From: a bacterium
GTDB taxonomy: Bacteria > Electryoneota > Electryoneia > Electryoneales > Electryoneaceae
DNA: 64,000 bases
Direction of reading: 5' to 3'
Assembly (NCBI GenBank): GCA_020444265.1
Contig: JAHLLH010000002.1
Location: 62,001-126,000 of the forward strand
The position numbers and the translations under genes are program-made. Below the pieces are notes generated by a model that saw nothing but the letters and a program-made list of their open reading frames with translations, was not told the DNA's origin and ran no database searches. Each line of letters begins with the position of its first letter. Within the stretch, counting starts at the first letter, position 1. This document shows positions 30,282 through 38,595 of the stretch, in pieces.

Positions 30282-30530
30282 TCAACGCCACTCAAGTGTT
30301 TGTTTATGCTCGTCCTCGAATGTGTAGATAAGGGAATAATTCGGGGTGGGGGTGGAGGGAATGATTCGCTGACTGCGTGACTCGTCACGTGGAGCGTAAA
30401 ACGTGTAGTCGCTGTCCAACGCGTCCGCTAGCAACATCGCTATGAACCCGACCACAATCGCCGAGGCCACCACGATTCCCCACCGAACGATCTCTCGCTG
30501 ATTTCGTCTCCAGTACCGCTGCCAATTCAT
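30282..30530 (-). CDS. small single-pass membrane protein, unknown function
   Basis: An 82-residue protein with a basic N-terminus (NWQRYWRRNQREIVRW), one transmembrane helix (GIVVASAIVVGFIAMLLADAL) and a short, probably periplasmic tail rich in Tyr, Ser and Pro. The start at 30530 has AGGAAG seven bases upstream. It is convergent with rsmG, four bases apart. I do not recognise the family. The 261 bases between it and the polymerase gene (30531-30791) show no convincing gene. Confidence 0.6.
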   Translation of the reverse strand: MNWQRYWRRNQREIVRWGIVVASAIVVGFIAMLLADALDSDYTFYAPRDESRSQRIIPSTPTPNYSLIYTFEDEHKQTLEWR

Positions 30531-30791: not shown

Positions 30792-32228
30792 TCAGGCTGG
30801 AAGATTACCTTCGATCTTCATTTGCTCTTTTCGCTTTGCGGTCAAGTCAGGCAGCATCATGACCAGGGCTGTAAGGAACCAGAAAGGCTCCATGATACGG
30901 ACAATGATAAAGGTATTGGCGCCAATACCGTGTATGATCATCCCCGCAAACCCGCCCAGGTAACCAACAATAAAAGCATACTCCGCCGGGAAAAGCTTTG
31001 GGTCCACCAGTTTGAGCTTCTTCACCCCCTCGGCGAAAATCGTCCACAAAAGCCAGCCGAAGGCAAATAAACCCACCACGCCTGTCTCCACCAGCACACG
31101 GAAATACTGGGCATCCTTGAATCCGGCGCCCGTCACTCCCCACCCGAAAATCGGTTTCTGAGTCCACTGTTTGATGGTTTGTGTCCAGGAGATGATACGC
31201 GCCGAGGTGGAAGGATCAAGGGCGGTGTCCCCCACTTCAACCACATCCGTACGGAGCTGATTTTCCTGGCCGAACGTATAGCTGACACGTTCGTAAACCG
31301 ACGCGGGAATAACGAAAGGCAGGACCATCAGTGCCAGGATCATGGCAATAATCAGTTGACGGCGCTGTCTGCTATAGAAGATGACCACAAGGACGGCGGG
31401 GAACAGCGCAATCCAGGACGACCGCGACAGCGTATAGGCAAATGGAATCAACATCACCAACAGAAGGATGAGGTAGCCGGCGCGTTGACGCATACTCTTC
31501 AAGGTCGGTAGAATCGCGATCACCAGGGACATCATGATGACCAGGTAGCCACCAAGCGTGTTCGCTTCACCGCCCTCGCCCTCAAAGGGCGCCGAGACAC
31601 GAACCCCGGATGGAATCTGCGAAACGGCATACAGCGAGACAAGGAAAGCAGTGATCAGGAACATGCGGCGATACCGCCACAAGTTGGTCAGGTCCTGGAT
31701 ATGTGACGAGACCATAAGAAAGATCAGGAAGTATTGGAAGTACTTGATGTTGTACAGCAAACCAACCAGCGGCGAAACGTTACCGTTGAAGATCCCGAGG
31801 AAGGTTGCAAAAAAACTTATGCCAAGATAGGTGAAGATGGGGCGGTTCAGCGGTGTGCGGATAAAAAGACCCAAGTCCTTGTTCACAGCCGTTTTCACCA
31901 GCCAGGAGAGGGTGATCAAACCGAGCAGAAGGTCATCGAAACGGAGGACAACGTCACGCGAAGTGTCGGTTCCGCCCCCACCGCCCCCACCAATGGCAAA
32001 CTCCGGAGAAAGCAGCATGGAGAGAATGAGGATCGAGAGGGCGAAGTCAGTATTGATGAAAGCGAAAATGAAAATTGCAATCGCAACCACCGAGTAGAAC
32101 GCGAGGCTTTCGTCATAGCCAGCAAGGCTGGAGATGGCCAACGAGGCGAGGGTCACGACAATCATGGTCGCGACCACCGCGAGACGTTGATTCCCGGTAT
32201 TCAGCCCGAGAGAGCCTCGAAAAAGCAT
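30792..32228 (-). CDS. O-antigen ligase/polymerase family membrane protein (Wzy_C)
   Basis: A 478-residue protein with about eleven hydrophobic segments. It has the Wzy_C-type large periplasmic loop, seen as SRSSWIALFPAVLVV before it and KPIFGWGVTGAGFKDAQY followed by VLVETGVVGLFAF after it. Such proteins polymerise or ligate lipid-linked polysaccharide units at the periplasmic face. A run of seven glycines (EFAIGGGGGGGTD) sits in an early loop. It is the last gene of the minus-strand block, ten bases after the tyrosine autokinase-like gene. No glycosyltransferases or flippase accompany it. Confidence 0.82.
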   Translation of the reverse strand: MLFRGSLGLNTGNQRLAVVATMIVVTLASLAISSLAGYDESLAFYSVVAIAIFIFAFINTDFALSILILSMLLSPEFAIGGGGGGGTDTSRDVVLRFDDLLLGLITLSWLVKTAVNKDLGLFIRTPLNRPIFTYLGISFFATFLGIFNGNVSPLVGLLYNIKYFQYFLIFLMVSSHIQDLTNLWRYRRMFLITAFLVSLYAVSQIPSGVRVSAPFEGEGGEANTLGGYLVIMMSLVIAILPTLKSMRQRAGYLILLLVMLIPFAYTLSRSSWIALFPAVLVVIFYSRQRRQLIIAMILALMVLPFVIPASVYERVSYTFGQENQLRTDVVEVGDTALDPSTSARIISWTQTIKQWTQKPIFGWGVTGAGFKDAQYFRVLVETGVVGLFAFGWLLWTIFAEGVKKLKLVDPKLFPAEYAFIVGYLGGFAGMIIHGIGANTFIIVRIMEPFWFLTALVMMLPDLTAKRKEQMKIEGNLPA

Positions 32229-32237
32229 CGCTCTCGT

Positions 32238-34547
32238 CTACGCTTTCTCTTTTTCTTTCGGCCCGAGCAGGGTGTCAACTTTAAGTTTGCCCATCAGACG
32301 TTCCCACCCGGATTTACGTTTCGGCTGCTGTTCCACCACCTCGGTATCGCCGGACGCACCATAGTACTTGCCGTAGTAATAGTGCGAGCTGGAGAAGCCG
32401 ATCAGTTCTGAACGAAGATCGTTGAGCACAACACCCATGACCGTTGCGCCTACCGATTCAATCTGCACCTTTGCGCGACGCAGCGCGGCGCGTGGCACCT
32501 TGCCGGTACGGTAGACTAACAGGGTCGCATCGGTTCGTTTCGCCAGAATCGCCGCATCGGTCACCGGCAGCACCGGCGGGGCATCGAAAAGGATGATGTC
32601 AAACTCTTCGCGTGCCTCGTCAATGAACTGCTTCATCCGCTCGGAAACCAGCATTTCTGCCGGGTTCGGCGGCACACCGCCACTGGTGATGATGTGAAGG
32701 TTCTCCATACCCGGGGTCATCAAGGTCGAGGACATGCCCATATCGCCCATGATGATATCGGTCACCGTTCGAATGCAGTCGCGCCATTCGACACGTCCCA
32801 GTACGATATCGACCACACCCGGGGCCTGATCGATCCCGAAAACCTTGTAGATGCTCGGGCGACGCAGGTTGCAACCGACCAGCAGGATTTTCACTCCGCC
32901 CTGCGCCATCGTAATCGCGAGGTTCACAAGGGTGGTCGACTTTCCCTCCTGCAAGGAGGCAGACGTGGTGGTAATCGTCTTGACTGGCGAATCAATCGCA
33001 CGGAATTGCAAGGCAGTACGCAGGGCGCGATAGCCTTCCGCCACAGGATCTTTCGGGGCAAAGTGGGTGACAAGCCGTGCGGACGCTTCGAGGTTGGGGT
33101 TGTTTTCCAACCCCGGGTTTCTTCGTAACAAGTGTTCCGTGACCGACTCGATGTCGATGCTGGGGATTACCCCAAGCACCGGCACCTGGAGGAATTCTTC
33201 AACATCTTCGATTGTCCCGATGGAGGTATCAAACGTTTCGAAGAGGAAGGCGAGTACCAGGCCAAGTGTCAGCCCAATCACAAAGCCTACACTGATCATG
33301 CGGCTCATATTGATGTTGATCGGAGCCTGATTAAGCATGGCGGGACGGACCACAGTGACCTCGTCCGCCTGGTCCGCTTCACGGATCAATGCTTCCTGGT
33401 ATTTAACTGTCAGGTCGGTGTACTGTGCTTCACGCAGGGCAACTTCACGTTCCAGCTGAGCATAGCGTCGTTGCGCTTCGGGTACCTTGGCAAATTCGGC
33501 GTCGCCTTCGGCAATCAGCCTGTCGAGATTCTTCAGCTCGCGTTTCTTGGCGTCCAGCATATCTATCGCTTCTTCAGCGATCTGGCTGAGCAATGCCTGA
33601 ATGTCACCTTCAAGCTGGGTAATGCGCGGATAATCAGGTTTGTATTGGGTCAACAGGTCACGTTTACGGACTTCGAGTTCGATCAGACGCTGGTTCAACA
33701 GGGCAATCGACCCGCCGTCCGCTTCTCCGGAGGAAAACCAGTCGATCAGGCGCATGGCCGAGGAGTCCATGGCTGTGTTTTTCAGTTCCCCTTCACCTGT
33801 CTTGCGCAGGTTTTGACGCTGACGAAGCTGTCCGAGCTGGGTCGTAAGCTGATCAACAACTGTCTCGAGCGACCGTTTCTTTTCACGCAGGCTCATTTGT
33901 TCTTCGAGCCTGAGGCGGAGTTGGTCGTTCAAGACGGGGAGTTTACTCTGCTGGCGAAAATCCTGCAACCGGTTTTCCGCAGCGTTCAAATTGGACTGTG
34001 CCAGCAGGAGTTGGGATTCGATAAATTCTCGTGTTTCACGATCCTGCCGGGACTTCTCCTCCAGATGAGTTTCGGTGAAGACCTGCGCCAGGGTCTGTGC
34101 AACATCGCGGGCCTCGTAGGGATCATCCGATGTCACATTGATGTCGATGATATTGGTTCGTCCACTTCGTTCCGTGGTGACCAGACCAATCATCCGGTTG
34201 ACCATCGATGCCAGTTCGGAGTTGGAACGGACATCCTCGCTGGTCAGATCACGATCGATCTTACCAAGCCGTTTCGCCACCTTTTCCATCACAGGAAAAC
34301 TGCGGATCAGCTCTTGCGCAGTGGCGATGTTATCCCATCGTGTGTAGGTCAGCCGTTGCAACAGCAACCCTGCAACCGTGTTTGTCTCTTCCACCTTGAC
34401 GCTGGAATAGGAACTGTAGAGCGGCTGACGGGAACGTCCGAAGAAATAACTGAAACCGAGCACCAGCAACGTAGCGAAGAGCACCACTTTCCAGCGTCGG
34501 CGAAGAATTCTCTGGACATCGCGCAGATTCAGGTCATACTGGGCCAT
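32238..34547 (-). CDS. Wzc-type polysaccharide co-polymerase / BY-kinase with altered Walker A'
   Basis: A 769-residue inner-membrane protein. It has a Wzz-type N-terminal half with two membrane helices (VVLFATLLVLGFSYFFG and MISVGFVIGLTLGLVLAFLF) flanking a long periplasmic coiled coil and the Pro-rich PININMS segment. The C-terminal P-loop domain has Walker A SLQEGKSTT (about residue 550) and Walker B IILFDAPP. The tail has a Tyr cluster, HYYYGKYYG. The Walker A' motif, normally LxDxDxR, reads LLVGCNLRRP, so both acidic residues are missing. The protein should set chain length and export; kinase activity is doubtful. It lies between Wza-like and Wzy-like genes. Confidence 0.9.
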   Translation of the reverse strand: MAQYDLNLRDVQRILRRRWKVVLFATLLVLGFSYFFGRSRQPLYSSYSSVKVEETNTVAGLLLQRLTYTRWDNIATAQELIRSFPVMEKVAKRLGKIDRDLTSEDVRSNSELASMVNRMIGLVTTERSGRTNIIDINVTSDDPYEARDVAQTLAQVFTETHLEEKSRQDRETREFIESQLLLAQSNLNAAENRLQDFRQQSKLPVLNDQLRLRLEEQMSLREKKRSLETVVDQLTTQLGQLRQRQNLRKTGEGELKNTAMDSSAMRLIDWFSSGEADGGSIALLNQRLIELEVRKRDLLTQYKPDYPRITQLEGDIQALLSQIAEEAIDMLDAKKRELKNLDRLIAEGDAEFAKVPEAQRRYAQLEREVALREAQYTDLTVKYQEALIREADQADEVTVVRPAMLNQAPININMSRMISVGFVIGLTLGLVLAFLFETFDTSIGTIEDVEEFLQVPVLGVIPSIDIESVTEHLLRRNPGLENNPNLEASARLVTHFAPKDPVAEGYRALRTALQFRAIDSPVKTITTTSASLQEGKSTTLVNLAITMAQGGVKILLVGCNLRRPSIYKVFGIDQAPGVVDIVLGRVEWRDCIRTVTDIIMGDMGMSSTLMTPGMENLHIITSGGVPPNPAEMLVSERMKQFIDEAREEFDIILFDAPPVLPVTDAAILAKRTDATLLVYRTGKVPRAALRRAKVQIESVGATVMGVVLNDLRSELIGFSSSHYYYGKYYGASGDTEVVEQQPKRKSGWERLMGKLKVDTLLGPKEKEKA

Positions 34548-34571
34548 GCTCGGCCACCTCTTTCCGTTTAA

Positions 34572-35264
34572 CTATCCTCCGAGCACCGCAATCAGGATCA
34601 CGGTCTGTAGCACAAGACCGACCAGCTGGACAACACGAGAGGTTTTTTCCAACCAACTGATTGGCTTAAAGGGGATAAAAACTCGATCCCCCGGTTGCAT
34701 CAGAATGTCCTGCGTGGCCACCCCGTTCTGGAAAAAACTGCGAAGATCAAGACGGATTAATTCACCGTTGCTCCGCAGGAGAGAGACATTTTCCAAATCC
34801 GCGTTCGGCTGAATGCCACCGTTGGCTGCAATAAATTCAGAAGCGGCCATGTTCGGTACGAGAGCAAAAACCCCCTGTTGGACACATGCCCCAACCAGGA
34901 CAGCCGTCAATGACCGATAGTCGAGTACCTCAACAAACACCTGTGGTTCTTCGATATAACGCGTCAAGTCACGCTTGATGTTGCGCTGAATTTCGGATGG
35001 CGTCAACCCGGCAACCTGAACCTTCCCGAGAAGGGGTACCAATACTTTCCCCTCTTCCCCTACATCGGTTTCGATCACTTTTCCGACATCCTCGAAGGAA
35101 ACTCCCTGGTAATAGCTGATCCGAACCCTGTCGCCGATACCGATGACATATTCGATCGAACCGCCGTCGCCAGCCGTATCCTGTGCCAGGACAGTTGTAC
35201 TGCCAGCCAGAAGTAGCACCAGCAGCAGCCCGCCTCTCCACCATTTCATCGAGGTGATCCTCAT
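34572..35264 (-). CDS. polysaccharide export protein (Wza family)
   Basis: A 230-residue secreted protein with a signal peptide (WRGGLLLVLLLAGSTTVLAQ), a Poly_export domain (YVIGIGDRVRISYY, then VPLLGKVQVAGLTPSEIQ) and an SLBB domain (VLVGACVQQGVF, then PGDRVFIPF). The C-terminal helix is hydrophobic (VVQLVGLVLQTVILIAVLGG). There is no lipobox cysteine, unlike E. coli Wza. The start ATG 35264 overlaps the response-regulator stop in ATGA, indicating coupled translation; ATG 35249 is an alternative. Confidence 0.87.
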   Translation of the reverse strand: MRITSMKWWRGGLLLVLLLAGSTTVLAQDTAGDGGSIEYVIGIGDRVRISYYQGVSFEDVGKVIETDVGEEGKVLVPLLGKVQVAGLTPSEIQRNIKRDLTRYIEEPQVFVEVLDYRSLTAVLVGACVQQGVFALVPNMAASEFIAANGGIQPNADLENVSLLRSNGELIRLDLRSFFQNGVATQDILMQPGDRVFIPFKPISWLEKTSRVVQLVGLVLQTVILIAVLGG

Positions 35265-35647
35265 GTCAGGATAGATACCACTTTCGCCAGAATGCTGTGT
35301 TCCAGGTACTCGAGGTCAATCGGTTTGGTAATGAAATCAACGGCACCCTCTTTGAGCGCCTGCCGACCAATCCCTTCGTCGAGAACGCCGGTGACAACAA
35401 TGACACCAACAAACGTGTCGAACGAACGGATCCGCCTGAGCACCTCGATCCCGTCAATTCCCGGCATCTTGATGTCAAGCAGAATGACATGCGGGCGAAA
35501 GAGCTTGGTCTTGGCAAGTGCATCTTCGCCGTTCAGCGAGACCATGCATTCGTACCCACTACCGTTGAAATAATCGGCGAGAAATTCGCAGATTTCCTGT
35601 TCGTCGTCGACAATCAACAGTCGTTTTTTTACCGTTTTATTCAACAT
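35261..35647 (-). CDS. stand-alone response regulator receiver protein
   Basis: A 128-residue single receiver domain (CheY-like) with the acidic pair in LLIVDDEQE, the phospho-acceptor Asp in VILLDIKMPG, the conserved Thr in VVTG and Lys in ITKPID. It has no output domain and no kinase next to it. GGAG lies four bases before ATG 35647. Its position between the HprK-related kinase and the export genes suggests that it controls polysaccharide output by protein contact. That is inference. Confidence 0.9.
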   Translation of the reverse strand: MLNKTVKKRLLIVDDEQEICEFLADYFNGSGYECMVSLNGEDALAKTKLFRPHVILLDIKMPGIDGIEVLRRIRSFDTFVGVIVVTGVLDEGIGRQALKEGAVDFITKPIDLEYLEHSILAKVVSILT

Positions 35648-35680
35648 GATCTCCAGAATGCGACGTTTCGCCACAGCACC

Positions 35681-36574
35681 TTAGCTACCCAACAATTGCA
35701 TCGCCCGGGTCGCGGCTTCTTCGGATCCACCGGCACCATGAAGATGGATGGTCTCGCAAAGCGTGCGCAAGCTGCCAAGTGCTTGAGTTTCATCTCCCGC
35801 ATGGTACGCGAGGGACAACAGTGCGGGCAGCGCCTGAATATCGTTCAGCTTGCCCCTCAGTGCATCAAAACCAACCAGTATTGCAGCGCGCGGACGAGAG
35901 GCCCGTACCCAGGGAACAGTACCGTTGGCCAAGTGACGTTTTCCTGCCGGATCGACACGACCTGGTTTCAGGTGGTTGAAGCGGCTCCAGACATCATCCC
36001 GCGCTCGTAACCCATCCCCAAGACCCGCAATGCGAAACGATCCTTCATCACGGTAGAGAAAGAGCAGATCATCTGACACAAGCCGCGCGTGCTGCGACAA
36101 TAGCAACAATGCCGTTGTGGTCTTTCCGCTCCCCGAATGCCCTGCAATCATCACACTGTTCCCGCCCATATCCACGGCACTGGCATGCAGGGCGCGAACC
36201 CCTCGTGCCGCCAGCGGCGGAAGAAGTGTGGGCAACAACAATTGGTCAAAGATGCTCTCAGTCTGAAGCCAGGCGGACGCTGGCAGTGCTATGTGGGCCT
36301 TTCCGGCCCGTGGATGCAGTTCGATGATCGTCCCGAGATCCGGATGCCACCACAGCATGTGGTCCGGATCGCCGTACGCCTCGAGTCGACCGCGCTTGAG
36401 ACGGGGTTCTCCCTCGGGCTCGGGCATGGAGGCGTTGCCCACTGACAAGTCGACAAAAATATCCGGCTTATCGTCCTCCTCCACCGCACGAAATCCGTCC
36501 GGTACAGCAACTTCCGGGATATCGTGGTTGCGGTGCAACCCGATCCGGACCCCGGCAAATTCAAATTGGATCAC
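35681..36574 (-). CDS. HprK-related P-loop kinase
   Basis: A 297-residue protein of the HPr kinase-like family. The P-loop GHSGSGKTT sits at about 145-153 after the conserved ALHASAV strand, followed by LVSDDLLFL and a Gly-rich LGDGLRARDD. It lacks the HPr-specific C-terminal signature, as do kinases associated with PqqD and exosortase or polysaccharide loci. In paeninodin-type lasso clusters, HprK homologues phosphorylate a serine of the precursor peptide. The start is GTG 36574, with GGGAG five bases upstream; it overlaps the PqqD stop in GTGA. Confidence 0.85.
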   Translation of the reverse strand: MIQFEFAGVRIGLHRNHDIPEVAVPDGFRAVEEDDKPDIFVDLSVGNASMPEPEGEPRLKRGRLEAYGDPDHMLWWHPDLGTIIELHPRAGKAHIALPASAWLQTESIFDQLLLPTLLPPLAARGVRALHASAVDMGGNSVMIAGHSGSGKTTTALLLLSQHARLVSDDLLFLYRDEGSFRIAGLGDGLRARDDVWSRFNHLKPGRVDPAGKRHLANGTVPWVRASRPRAAILVGFDALRGKLNDIQALPALLSLAYHAGDETQALGSLRTLCETIHLHGAGGSEEAATRAMQLLGS

Positions 36575-36840
36575 TGAGACTCCCGAAGAAACCCCACAGA
36601 TACGAGCTCGCGACAAAAGGTTACAACTTCAGCCCGACACTGCTCGCGATCCGGCGCTGATTCACGGGAGGCCAGTGTATCGAGTAACACATCCAAGTTA
36701 CGCGATTCGCGCAGGTGCTTCCAAACCATGCGGCCCGTACTATTCACGATCACATAGTCTCCCGTGTCGCGCAGGAGCAACAAGCCCTCGCTCAATTCCT
36801 GCTCGACCACCTGATCGACGGGTACGGGTAATGTGTCCAT
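36571..36840 (-). CDS. PqqD-family RiPP recognition element
   Basis: An 89-residue stand-alone PqqD/RRE winged-helix protein. It has the strand pattern GLLLLRDTGDYVIVNSTGRMVWKHL followed by helices ending FCRELVSVGFL. PqqD-like domains bind the leader of ribosomally made peptides and present them to modifying enzymes. The start at 36840 has AGAGGA just upstream. An 81-base gap separates it from the nucleotidyltransferase gene and contains a T-rich tract on the coding strand that could hold an internal promoter. It overlaps the kinase gene by four bases. Confidence 0.87.
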   Translation of the reverse strand: MDTLPVPVDQVVEQELSEGLLLLRDTGDYVIVNSTGRMVWKHLRESRNLDVLLDTLASRESAPDREQCRAEVVTFCRELVSVGFLRESQ

Positions 36841-36921
36841 AGTGTCCTCTGTTTCGGTGAGGCTATCCACCAATATCGAGTGATAATACAAAAAAAACCA
36901 AAACCAATGCGACTCGCCGGG

Positions 36922-38082
36922 TTACTCGGCCCGCTTTTTCGGGCCGTCGCGAAATCCCTGTATCAGCTTTCCTGCAGCGCGAAAACGGTCCTGCAGGTAG
37001 GCTCCCCATCCGGGACGGTCCGTATCGCTGAACCAGAAAAGATCTCGTGATGGAAACATGGTGCGAAAGAGATACCCCGCTTTGTCCCGGTTGTGGTCCA
37101 TCAGGTCAAGCATCGCACTCAATCGCCTCCACCCGCCATGCTGAGTCAGATGACCATGGCCGATCACATAGGGAGACCGTCTCGCTGCGGCACGAGCCGT
37201 AGCTTTGTCCGGTATCAGGTGATCCAGGGGATGCCAACTGGTCGCATAAAGTTGACGGGCTACTTCCAGGCCAACATGTACTCCTCGCAGAATGTTCCAG
37301 TGACGGCAGAACGTTTCAAATTCACGCGGGTCTATCTGCTGTCGCCATAATTCACACCCGAGATGGACATCGTAGGACCAGGCGAGACGGAAGGTGCCGT
37401 GACGAACGCTGTGCAAGGCCGTATAAGCAAGATGTTGGATCGGTTGTAATGTCGAGAGCGCCAACCCCTCGGTCAGTTCGAGGCGGCTGGTCTGCTGGGT
37501 CAGCGCATCAGGATGAAGCCAGAAGGGTTCTGTCCGGTCGATAGGATCGCGATGCAAATCGACGATGACAGGACGGACCGGGTGACGCAACACCTGAGCA
37601 AAGCCATATTTACGGCCAATTTCGGCAGGATGGTCACGGTGAATACTTGGCTGGAGACGCCACCCCTCTCCCTGCAATGCTTCAACCGCTTTGTCAAAAT
37701 CCCCCGTGCCAAGCAGAATGTCGAGATCACCAGGATTGCGCAGCCAGGGGCGCGGATAAAGCTCTGCCAGGGCTAGTCCTTTGAAGAGAACCGGGTGGAA
37801 AGGACGGAGGATTTTCAGGGCGTCCGCTAGCGCCACGACCACCATGTTACGCCTGATTTTTGCCTGGAGAACAGTCTGATCCAGCCTTTGTAGCGGTTCG
37901 CCTGCCAGTTTGCGACGCCAAGTGTCATGCCTGCTGGCCTGCCAGGAACCGAGCGGACCGAGACCGTGGTGAACGATCAGATCGGCAATGAGAGACGGAT
38001 CGGACAGCTCGCCACGAGGAGTTCCCCCCCGAAGAAGCTGGCAGGCATCCCGCACAACCCGTTCCGCTTCAATCCGGTTCAT
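36922..38082 (-). CDS. nucleotidyltransferase-family protein (PF14907-like)
   Basis: A 386-residue protein with the family core FKGLALAELYPRPWLRNPGDLDILL: Lys-Gly, then Tyr, then Arg, then Asp-x-Asp, the metal-binding nucleotidyltransferase motif. A helical region with several conserved His/Trp positions follows (LAYTALHSVRHGTFRLAWSYDV). Members occur with PqqD and HprK-related genes in lasso-peptide and exosortase or polysaccharide loci. In lasso clusters the kinase and nucleotidyltransferase are thought to decorate the same peptide. The start overlaps the stop of the S24/S26 gene by four bases. Confidence 0.82.
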   Translation of the reverse strand: MNRIEAERVVRDACQLLRGGTPRGELSDPSLIADLIVHHGLGPLGSWQASRHDTWRRKLAGEPLQRLDQTVLQAKIRRNMVVVALADALKILRPFHPVLFKGLALAELYPRPWLRNPGDLDILLGTGDFDKAVEALQGEGWRLQPSIHRDHPAEIGRKYGFAQVLRHPVRPVIVDLHRDPIDRTEPFWLHPDALTQQTSRLELTEGLALSTLQPIQHLAYTALHSVRHGTFRLAWSYDVHLGCELWRQQIDPREFETFCRHWNILRGVHVGLEVARQLYATSWHPLDHLIPDKATARAAARRSPYVIGHGHLTQHGGWRRLSAMLDLMDHNRDKAGYLFRTMFPSRDLFWFSDTDRPGWGAYLQDRFRAAGKLIQGFRDGPKKRAE

Positions 38083-38510
38083 AGGTTTCCACGATCACGT
38101 TCGAACAACTTGTGTAACCGCCAGAGGAAGGGGGTCGTCAGCGATTGAACCTTCCCGTTGCGTTTACGAGAAATCACAACACCAAGCAATTGATCAAGCT
38201 GAAGACGATTGATATCCTGTTGACGATCTCCCCGCTCGAGCAAAGCATCGCTTTCCCAGCCGAGAAAACGATGGACGATTAATTGCCTGTCCCGGACAAA
38301 CAGAATCATCATCCCGGGCCGTAAGCTTTCCCGTTCCGATTGCTTCGTCCACGGTTGAACGAGCACAAAGTCCCCGTTGCGCAGCAGCGGTTTCATCGAG
38401 CTGCCGGAAACGGGGACCCAATAGGGACTCTGAAGTGTGCGAAGAAGTTCGGCTGGATCCGTGTTACGGTCCCCAGGGATCGGGTTCGTCGCTGAAGAGC
38501 TTGGCTTCAA
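38079..38510 (-). CDS. S24/S26 signal-peptidase-like protein without membrane anchor
   Basis: A protein of about 143 residues with the peptidase S24/S26 core: the nucleophile Ser38 in VSGSSMKPLL, NGDFVLVQP, and LIVHRFLG followed by LLERGDRQ. The second catalytic position has His-Arg and no typical Lys, suggesting a Ser-His type site as in archaeal or ER-like signal peptidases. There is no membrane helix, so it is cytoplasmic or peripheral. The start is uncertain. TTG 38510 has AAGGA four bases upstream; ATG 38543 or 38555 would overlap the peptide gene more deeply. It may trim the adjacent peptide. Confidence 0.7.
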   Translation of the reverse strand: MKPSSSATNPIPGDRNTDPAELLRTLQSPYWVPVSGSSMKPLLRNGDFVLVQPWTKQSERESLRPGMMILFVRDRQLIVHRFLGWESDALLERGDRQQDINRLQLDQLLGVVISRKRNGKVQSLTTPFLWRLHKLFERDRGNL

Positions 38511-38595
38511 TTCGTCCTTTCTCCACGACTGCGGGCGGTGCATAGCGCTCTTCATCGTTCGAATCGATCGGATGCTGTGCGGGGTCCTTCTCCAT
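38464..38595 (-). CDS. small peptide with lasso-type leader motif (candidate RiPP precursor)
   Basis: A 43-residue frame begins at ATG 38595 and ends at TAA 38464. AGGAGG lies five bases upstream, one of the best ribosome-binding sites in the window. The peptide is acidic and Pro-rich. Residues Tyr18, Pro21, Val23 and Gly27 form YAPPAVVEKG, matching the YxxPx[L/V]xxxG leader motif recognised by PqqD-like RRE domains. The tail after Gly27 ends LFSDEPDPWGP, with one Ser (Ser35) flanked by acidic residues. It lacks the Thr-x-Gly junction of a true lasso core. It starts 42 bases after gyrB and precedes the S26, nucleotidyltransferase, PqqD and HprK genes. Its expression and processing are unproven. 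Confidence 0.72.
   Translation of the reverse strand: MEKDPAQHPIDSNDEERYAPPAVVEKGRIEAKLFSDEPDPWGP

Follow-up and report, generated by a model that had tools for sequence, protein, structure and literature searches.

A nine-gene block at the replication origin

The window, i.e., the whole stretch of 64,000 nucleotides analyzed here, comes from the Electryoneota genome designated G000 and contains a block of nine genes that are all carried by the minus strand (Table 1). Their order is the one given in the preliminary description of this DNA; re-reading of the positions and reading frames confirmed all nine ORFs, and Pfam/NCBIfam matches back the assignments. The block is flanked by gyrB-dciA-dnaN-dnaA on one side and by rsmG-mnmG-mnmE-yidC on the other, and therefore lies at the replication origin. 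The overlaps previously noted at several joints were read directly as ATGA at the S26/NTP and REC/Wza joints and as GTGA at the PqqD/HprK joint, and the S26 reading frame also covers the 3′ end of the peptide gene, in a different phase, an arrangement shared by the three other family genomes that have both genes. The peptide gene follows gyrB at a spacing of 42 nt, and the largest gap inside the nine-gene block, 81 nt, separates NTP from PqqD. Consensus promoters (7 found vs. 5.0 ± 2.2 by chance) and consensus terminators (11 vs. 12.1 ± 3.0) occur in the block at chance level. A terminator at the NTP-PqqD gap was considered and rejected: a GC hairpin and a T-run are present but not adjacent, and the RNA fold (z −1.37) is not unusual. 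None of the 20 window proteins scanned is a glycosyltransferase or a flippase, as had been remarked for the surroundings of the export genes, and a family scan of the block proteins found neither an MsbA-like transporter nor a radical SAM enzyme. On sequence comparison, the small membrane protein listed last in Table 1 is probably encoded by the tenth gene of the block; a similar small ORF was seen by eye at the same place in G004, and a methyltransferase gene, missing from the window, stands between Wzy and the small protein in G001, G003, and G004.

Table 1. Genes of the block and their main sequence features (coordinates within the window).
Feature	Coordinates	Strand	Remarks
Precursor-like peptide, 43 aa	38464..38595	-	No family; leader YAPPAVVEKG, end LFSDEPDPWGP; ATG after AGGAGGAAAGG
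S26/S24-like serine peptidase, candidate leader peptidase	38079..38555	-	PF00717; candidate start, overlaps peptide gene
NTP_transf_5 nucleotidyltransferase-fold protein, LppN/PsmN-like	36922..38082	-	PF14907 E=3.7e-31
PqqD-type discrete RiPP recognition element	36571..36840	-	PF05402
HprK-like predicted peptide kinase	35681..36574	-	GTG start overlaps PqqD stop; HprK-type P-loop matches
Stand-alone receiver domain (REC)	35261..35674	-	PF00072 E=1.1e-26
Wza-like outer-membrane export protein	34572..35264	-	PF02563 (Poly_export), SLBB_2
Wzc-like chain-length/tyrosine autokinase	32238..34547	-	Wzz, GNVR, AAA_31; degenerate Walker A' LLVGCNLRRP
Wzy_C family membrane protein, polymerase or ligase	30792..32228	-	PF04932 E=5.1e-14
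Small membrane protein, likely tenth block gene	30282..30530	-	Homologues after Wzy/methyltransferase in G001, G003

The S26/S24-like protein scores over the cut-off of PF00717 and below those of sigpep_I_arch and sod_Ni_protease; it appears to be a relative of archaeal-type signal peptidases and is a candidate leader peptidase, with S53, H95, and D110 invariant in the four proteins aligned. Residues D119, D121, and D175 of the NTP protein are likewise invariant in 4/4. Its AF2 model (pLDDT 83.6) is best matched by MenT1 (Z 14.6, rmsd 2.9 over 178), followed by ANT(2'') (Z 11.7) and the ribitol-phosphate transferase FKRP (Z 8.8), so that the protein is predicted to fold as a nucleotidyltransferase, a common fold that in itself shows no function. 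The only PDB sequences matched by the PqqD protein at E≤1 are lasso-type RREs, namely TbiB1, TfuB1, and 9x90_B. The kinase displays the residues H130-G145-G148-G150-K151-T152-D168-D169 with the spacing found in BsfK, and in the G001 kinase E replaces the first catalytic Asp. The structure model of the HprK-like protein (pLDDT 61.3) was too poor for use, and a search with short patterns in genome contigs returned no relatives of this protein.

Among the export proteins, family membership does not discriminate between ligase and polymerase for the Wzy_C protein. Models of the XrtA system fall below their cut-offs (chain-length 141 bits vs. 278.85, kinase 117.9 vs. 230.65, export 68.3 vs. 180). 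The Walker A' motif of BY-kinases normally reads DxD. This signature is missing from the Wzc of the window, which has GCN at Walker A' (LLVGCNLRRP) and keeps both the Walker A motif (QEGKSTT) and a C-terminal tyrosine cluster (YYYGKYY).

Conservation of the peptide and of its union with the export genes

Occurrences were counted in 39 Electryoneota genomes, a sample that is small and partly incomplete and whose relatedness inflates all counts; the family of the window comprises seven genomes, including G001 (Ca. Electryonea clarkiae). A search of 118 genomes with the window peptide gave 25 genomes with any match at E≤10, from which G000, G001, G003, G004, G010, and G015 stand apart at E<1e-7. 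A peptide profile run over the 39 phylum genomes matched seven at E≤0.1 and the same six at E<1e-14, a count of 6/39 that includes the window's own genome; since the profile was built from the same peptides, the single-peptide search is the independent test. Matches in G008 (E 0.039) and in contig C161 of G015 (E 0.10), each with one stop inside, were left out of the peptide count. The peptide has no Pfam/NCBIfam family and no PDB match. Its end, LFSDEPDPWGP, is nearly invariant across homologues; the invariant columns of eight aligned peptides include P21, E25, L33, S35, D36, E37, P38, P40, W41, and P43, and the candidate phosphorylation site, Ser35, is thus present in 8/8. A degenerate pattern of this end, run over 84,980 species, matched six stretches, five of them from these Electryoneota lineages; the sixth, from Legionella, is part of a longer reading frame that lacks a YxxP leader and was dropped as chance. 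The preliminary description had left the link to a defined peptide unsettled, and this conservation now indicates that the 43-residue peptide gene is genuine, defined, and conserved. The window's genome also holds a diverged copy (G000:C4:74478-74564, i.e., L057 9478-9564; FTPPTLVEIELLDETLRGFSDEPNPWTP), which ends in SDEPNPWTP and has no ATG, GTG, or TTG start before the leader.

Gene order is identical to that of the window in G003, from a second genus (gyrB-peptide-S26-NTP-PqqD-HprK-REC-Wza-Wzc-Wzy), at 32-63% identity between the aligned proteins. In G004, from a third genus, gyrB-peptide-S26-NTP-PqqD-HprK runs up to a contig end, and a second contig carries Wzc-Wzy-methyltransferase-small protein, then rsmG. 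In G001, from a fourth genus, the block is divided into two loci precisely at the NTP-PqqD gap, with peptide-S26-NTP at one and PqqD-HprK-Wza-Wzc-Wzy beside dnaA at the other. These four genomes are the only ones of the 39 with strong HprK (E<1e-60) and PqqD (E<1e-18) matches, obtained with profiles built from three of the four, and the only ones with Wzc at ≥58% identity. The remaining family members, G002, G005, and G006, have no peptide match and no strong HprK, PqqD, or Wzc matches. Co-occurrence of the peptide and PqqD genes with Wza/Wzc in other genomes, on which the preliminary description had staked its proposal, is therefore borne out by four family genomes with peptide, PqqD, HprK, and orthologous Wzc, set against three without.

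Outside the family, G010, which belongs to another class of Candidatus Electryoneota than G001, keeps the order S26-NTP-PqqD-HprK on a contig of 3 kb, and a second contig has REC-Wza-Wzc-Wzy; both contigs end at the HprK|REC joint, and their ends have no common sequence by which adjacency could be seen. G015, which is 77% complete, has S26-NTP near a contig end and shows neither a Wzc with GCN nor a PqqD match. S26 and NTP of the window kind stand side by side in all six peptide-bearing genomes. The peptide genes of G010 and G015 are found beside genes for T9SS-type secreted proteins and not beside export genes. All four have a T9SS-tail protein as neighbor, three flagged by the search and the fourth (L056) by eye; those of L054, L055, and L056 lie within about 60 nt of T9SS-tail surface-protein genes that are mutually similar. 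T9SS-tail matches are abundant (93 in G015, 147 in G010), each adjacency has by our own estimate a chance of perhaps 8%, and the copies are not independent, so this link is suggestive only. Together with the two loci of G001, these neighbors count against a simple single-operon reading. Taken over the phylum, sequence comparison nonetheless indicates that the union of the peptide set with Wza/Wzc/Wzy is conserved.

The Wzc variant follows the same distribution. GCN at Walker A' occurs in 7/30 Wzc loci of the phylum (G000, G001, G003, G004, G010, G031, and G026), and the peptide is present in 5/7 of these genomes vs. 1/32 others (G015; Fisher p=2e-4, uncorrected for relatedness); the other Wzc proteins of G010 and G015, encoded away from the peptide-modification set, read DSD at this position. 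The GCN subgroup of Wzc tracks the peptide-modification set. A receiver gene next to Wza is also found in G003, G010, G031, and G026 and was not found in the G001 block.

G031 and G026 belong to another family (f2), and in these two genomes NTP, HprK-like, PqqD, radical SAM, S26, REC, Wza, and Wzc genes stand together in another order. By eye, these blocks (L154, L234) have a receiver/HD-type regulator gene at their start, and a radical SAM/SPASM enzyme is encoded inside. Outside the phylum, NTP and a radical SAM protein accompany Wzc in G251 and G142, with Wza/Wzy as well in G251. A broader view is given by 60 NTP_transf_5 loci, i.e., 59 from a ranked list after removal of loci already examined, plus contig C112 of G026, chosen since NTP and Wza both matched on it. 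PqqD is present at 34 of them, HprK at 33, S26 at 19, and all three at 18; Wza and/or Wzc are present at 3/60, or 2/59 (G251 and G142) when the G026 contig is set aside. The modification set is therefore widespread and usually in other company; loci that unite it with export genes are few, special, and recurrent.

Relation to known peptides, proposed pathway, and alternatives

Linear polyphosphorylated peptides (LPPs) are RiPPs whose gene sets, according to Popov et al. (2026; PMC13381572), comprise a precursor, a SpI-like peptidase (S29/H68/D93), a discrete RRE, an HprK-like kinase, an NTP transferase, and an MsbA-like pump. The same paper describes experiments on the LPP core in a system from Paenibacillus; the kinase puts several phosphates on one Ser, and the NTP transferase was without effect in the host used; LPPs are often found in capsule loci and are said to be restricted to Bacillota (PMC13381572). 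As far as that paper allows comparison, the window resembles LPP loci by its Ser-His-Asp SpI-like peptidase, discrete RRE, HprK-like kinase, NTP transferase, [Y/W]xxP leader, lack of a cyclase, and polysaccharide setting. On the other hand, it differs by its Electryoneota host, by its constant association with Wza/Wzc/Wzy and a receiver, and by a short and nearly invariant peptide end where LPP cores are variable. Since the MsbA-like exporter and the HQxIxFET motif are both missing (of the LPP precursor motif YxxPxVLxHQxIxFETxxS, the peptide has the YxxPxV part and not the HQ..FET part), the set is best described, on sequence grounds, as LPP-like and not as LPP proper. It also recalls the SynChlorMet (SCM) cassette of NCBIfam by its PqqD- and HprK-related pair, whereas its kinase scores 15 bits to ScmC against a cut-off of 125 and the block has no radical SAM gene. 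The export genes are like those of Wza/Wzc/Wzy (XrtA/Eps-like) systems (Poly_export, Wzz-GNVR-BY-kinase, and Wzy_C) and unlike them in having no adjoining glycosyltransferase/flippase, in their degenerate Walker A', and in their coupling to peptide genes.

It seems fairly probable that an LPP-like RiPP is the product of the block and that a dedicated polysaccharide-export operon is coupled to it. By homology with these systems, the PqqD-type RRE would bind the 43-aa precursor through its [Y/W]xPPx[V/I]xExG leader, the HprK-like kinase would phosphorylate Ser35 of FSDEPDPWGP, the sole conserved hydroxyl of the end, and the S26-like Ser-His-Asp enzyme would cut the leader near ...IEAKL, so as to leave an acidic product roughly ten residues long. 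Leader binding, phosphorylation, and cleavage are, as a set, likely. Between the last two steps, the phosphate may be decorated further with a nucleotidyl or hexosyl group by the nucleotidyltransferase-fold enzyme, in the manner of PsmN; according to a review, PsmN either accounts for a hexose on phosphoserine or attaches a nucleotidyl group there, the sugar being added afterwards by the host (PMC9266682). As the block has no ABC exporter of its own, the product would stay with the Wza/Wzc/Wzy_C machine or leave through it, most likely tuning that machine or being carried by it. Synteny is the basis for proposing a cooperation between peptide and export machine, which is somewhat favored; any single role, as cargo, primer, or regulator, is less probable than this cooperation. 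One bolder variant, quite improbable in our view, casts the modified peptide as a gene-encoded molecule that primes or anchors a polysaccharide: phosphoserine would receive a sugar from the NTP-fold enzyme (PsmN-like chemistry; likeness to FKRP), Wzy_C would extend the sugar or ligate a glycan, and the peptide-linked polymer would pass out through Wza and the atypical Wzc. If true, bacteria would have in this peptide an equivalent of a glycan-priming protein.

A different explanation holds that two independent modules, for peptide modification and for export, happen to occupy the same safe insertion point at the origin, without functional contact. The two loci of G001 (peptide-S26-NTP and PqqD-HprK-export), an NTP-PqqD gap that measures roughly 80-190 nt in G000, G003, and G004, and the 57/60 NTP_transf_5 loci without Wza/Wzc nearby fit this explanation, yet PqqD-HprK remain with Wza-Wzc-Wzy in G001, REC-Wza-Wzc recur with the set in a different order in G031 and G026, NTP and radical SAM genes stand with Wzc beyond the phylum, and three family members lack both parts jointly; we regard it as rather unlikely. 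A further idea, judged distinctly unlikely, is that the peptide is a small regulator or subunit that stays unmodified, and that the kinase and NTP proteins have some other target, such as Wzc or a sugar. The nearly frozen C-terminal end, so different from the variable LPP cores, and the location of the G010 and G015 peptide genes away from the set speak for it; against it, all six peptide-bearing genomes also have the S26-NTP pair, the leader suits recognition by an RRE, and related clusters own YxxP peptides.

Extremely improbable, and largely refuted, is a lasso peptide cluster of paeninodin/Bsf type that is broken or has its cyclase elsewhere. A lasso core has a Gly-type first residue after Thr at −2 and an acidic ring partner at 7-9. 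The end of the window peptide is unlike such a core, the B2 protease (PF13471) occurs in 0/7 family genomes, and the cyclase model NF033535 is over its cut-off in 0/6 genomes, sub-threshold matches of the same kind being seen in 9/14 control genomes as well. These absences set the window apart from phosphorylated lasso peptides in spite of the YxxPx[V/I] leader, the matches of PqqD to lasso RREs, and the BsfK kinase motif. Kinase, RRE, and nucleotidyltransferase are indeed shared with paeninodin, Bsf, and pseudomycoidin, and the bsf and psm clusters likewise include an NTP gene (PMC10368454, PMC9266682).

For the preferred reading, an LPP-like peptide coupled to export, the interest lies in function. 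The LPP paper assigns no role to these peptides and only remarks on their frequent place in capsule loci (PMC13381572). Here, a defined peptide with a nearly invariant end is fixed with named export genes, including the GCN subgroup of Wzc; a frequent proximity to capsule genes thereby becomes a specific pairing that can be tested, and a lead on the function of poorly understood peptides. LPP-like chemistry, as predicted by homology, would also extend beyond Bacillota to an uncultured Electryoneota bacterium. A literature search found no paper on such a union of a peptide set with export genes in Electryoneota.

Related clusters and peptides

A cluster of G001 on contig C128 (L151) combines PqqD, a ScmC-type kinase (244 bits with the ScmC model against a cut-off of 125), S26, an ABC exporter whose best model is MsbA, below cut-off, and NTP; judged by its sequences, it appears to come closer to a complete LPP set, although it is not from Bacillota. 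LPP- or SCM-like clusters of this composition were seen in Electryoneota at L151, L155, L156, and L214, with precursor candidates in L151 and L214. Small ORFs near PqqD or S26 were scanned at 16 loci for the pattern [YW]xxPx[LIVAF], a SEP stretch not being a criterion. Precursor-like peptides with S-x-EP or SEP after the leader appeared in G001, G010, G026, G005, and G006, and Cys-bearing ones beside radical SAM genes in G012 and G017; several of the 16 loci gave no candidate, and the other ORFs listed look like chance. A second pair of PqqD and HprK/ScmC-like genes lies straight after a T9SS-tail protein gene in the window's genome (G000:C11, 353 kb; L001/L058). Finally, Wza-like proteins whose N-terminal part is a repeat region resembling FG-GAP by eye were seen in G010 and in a genome of another phylum (L279 558-3125, L232 3621-5903).
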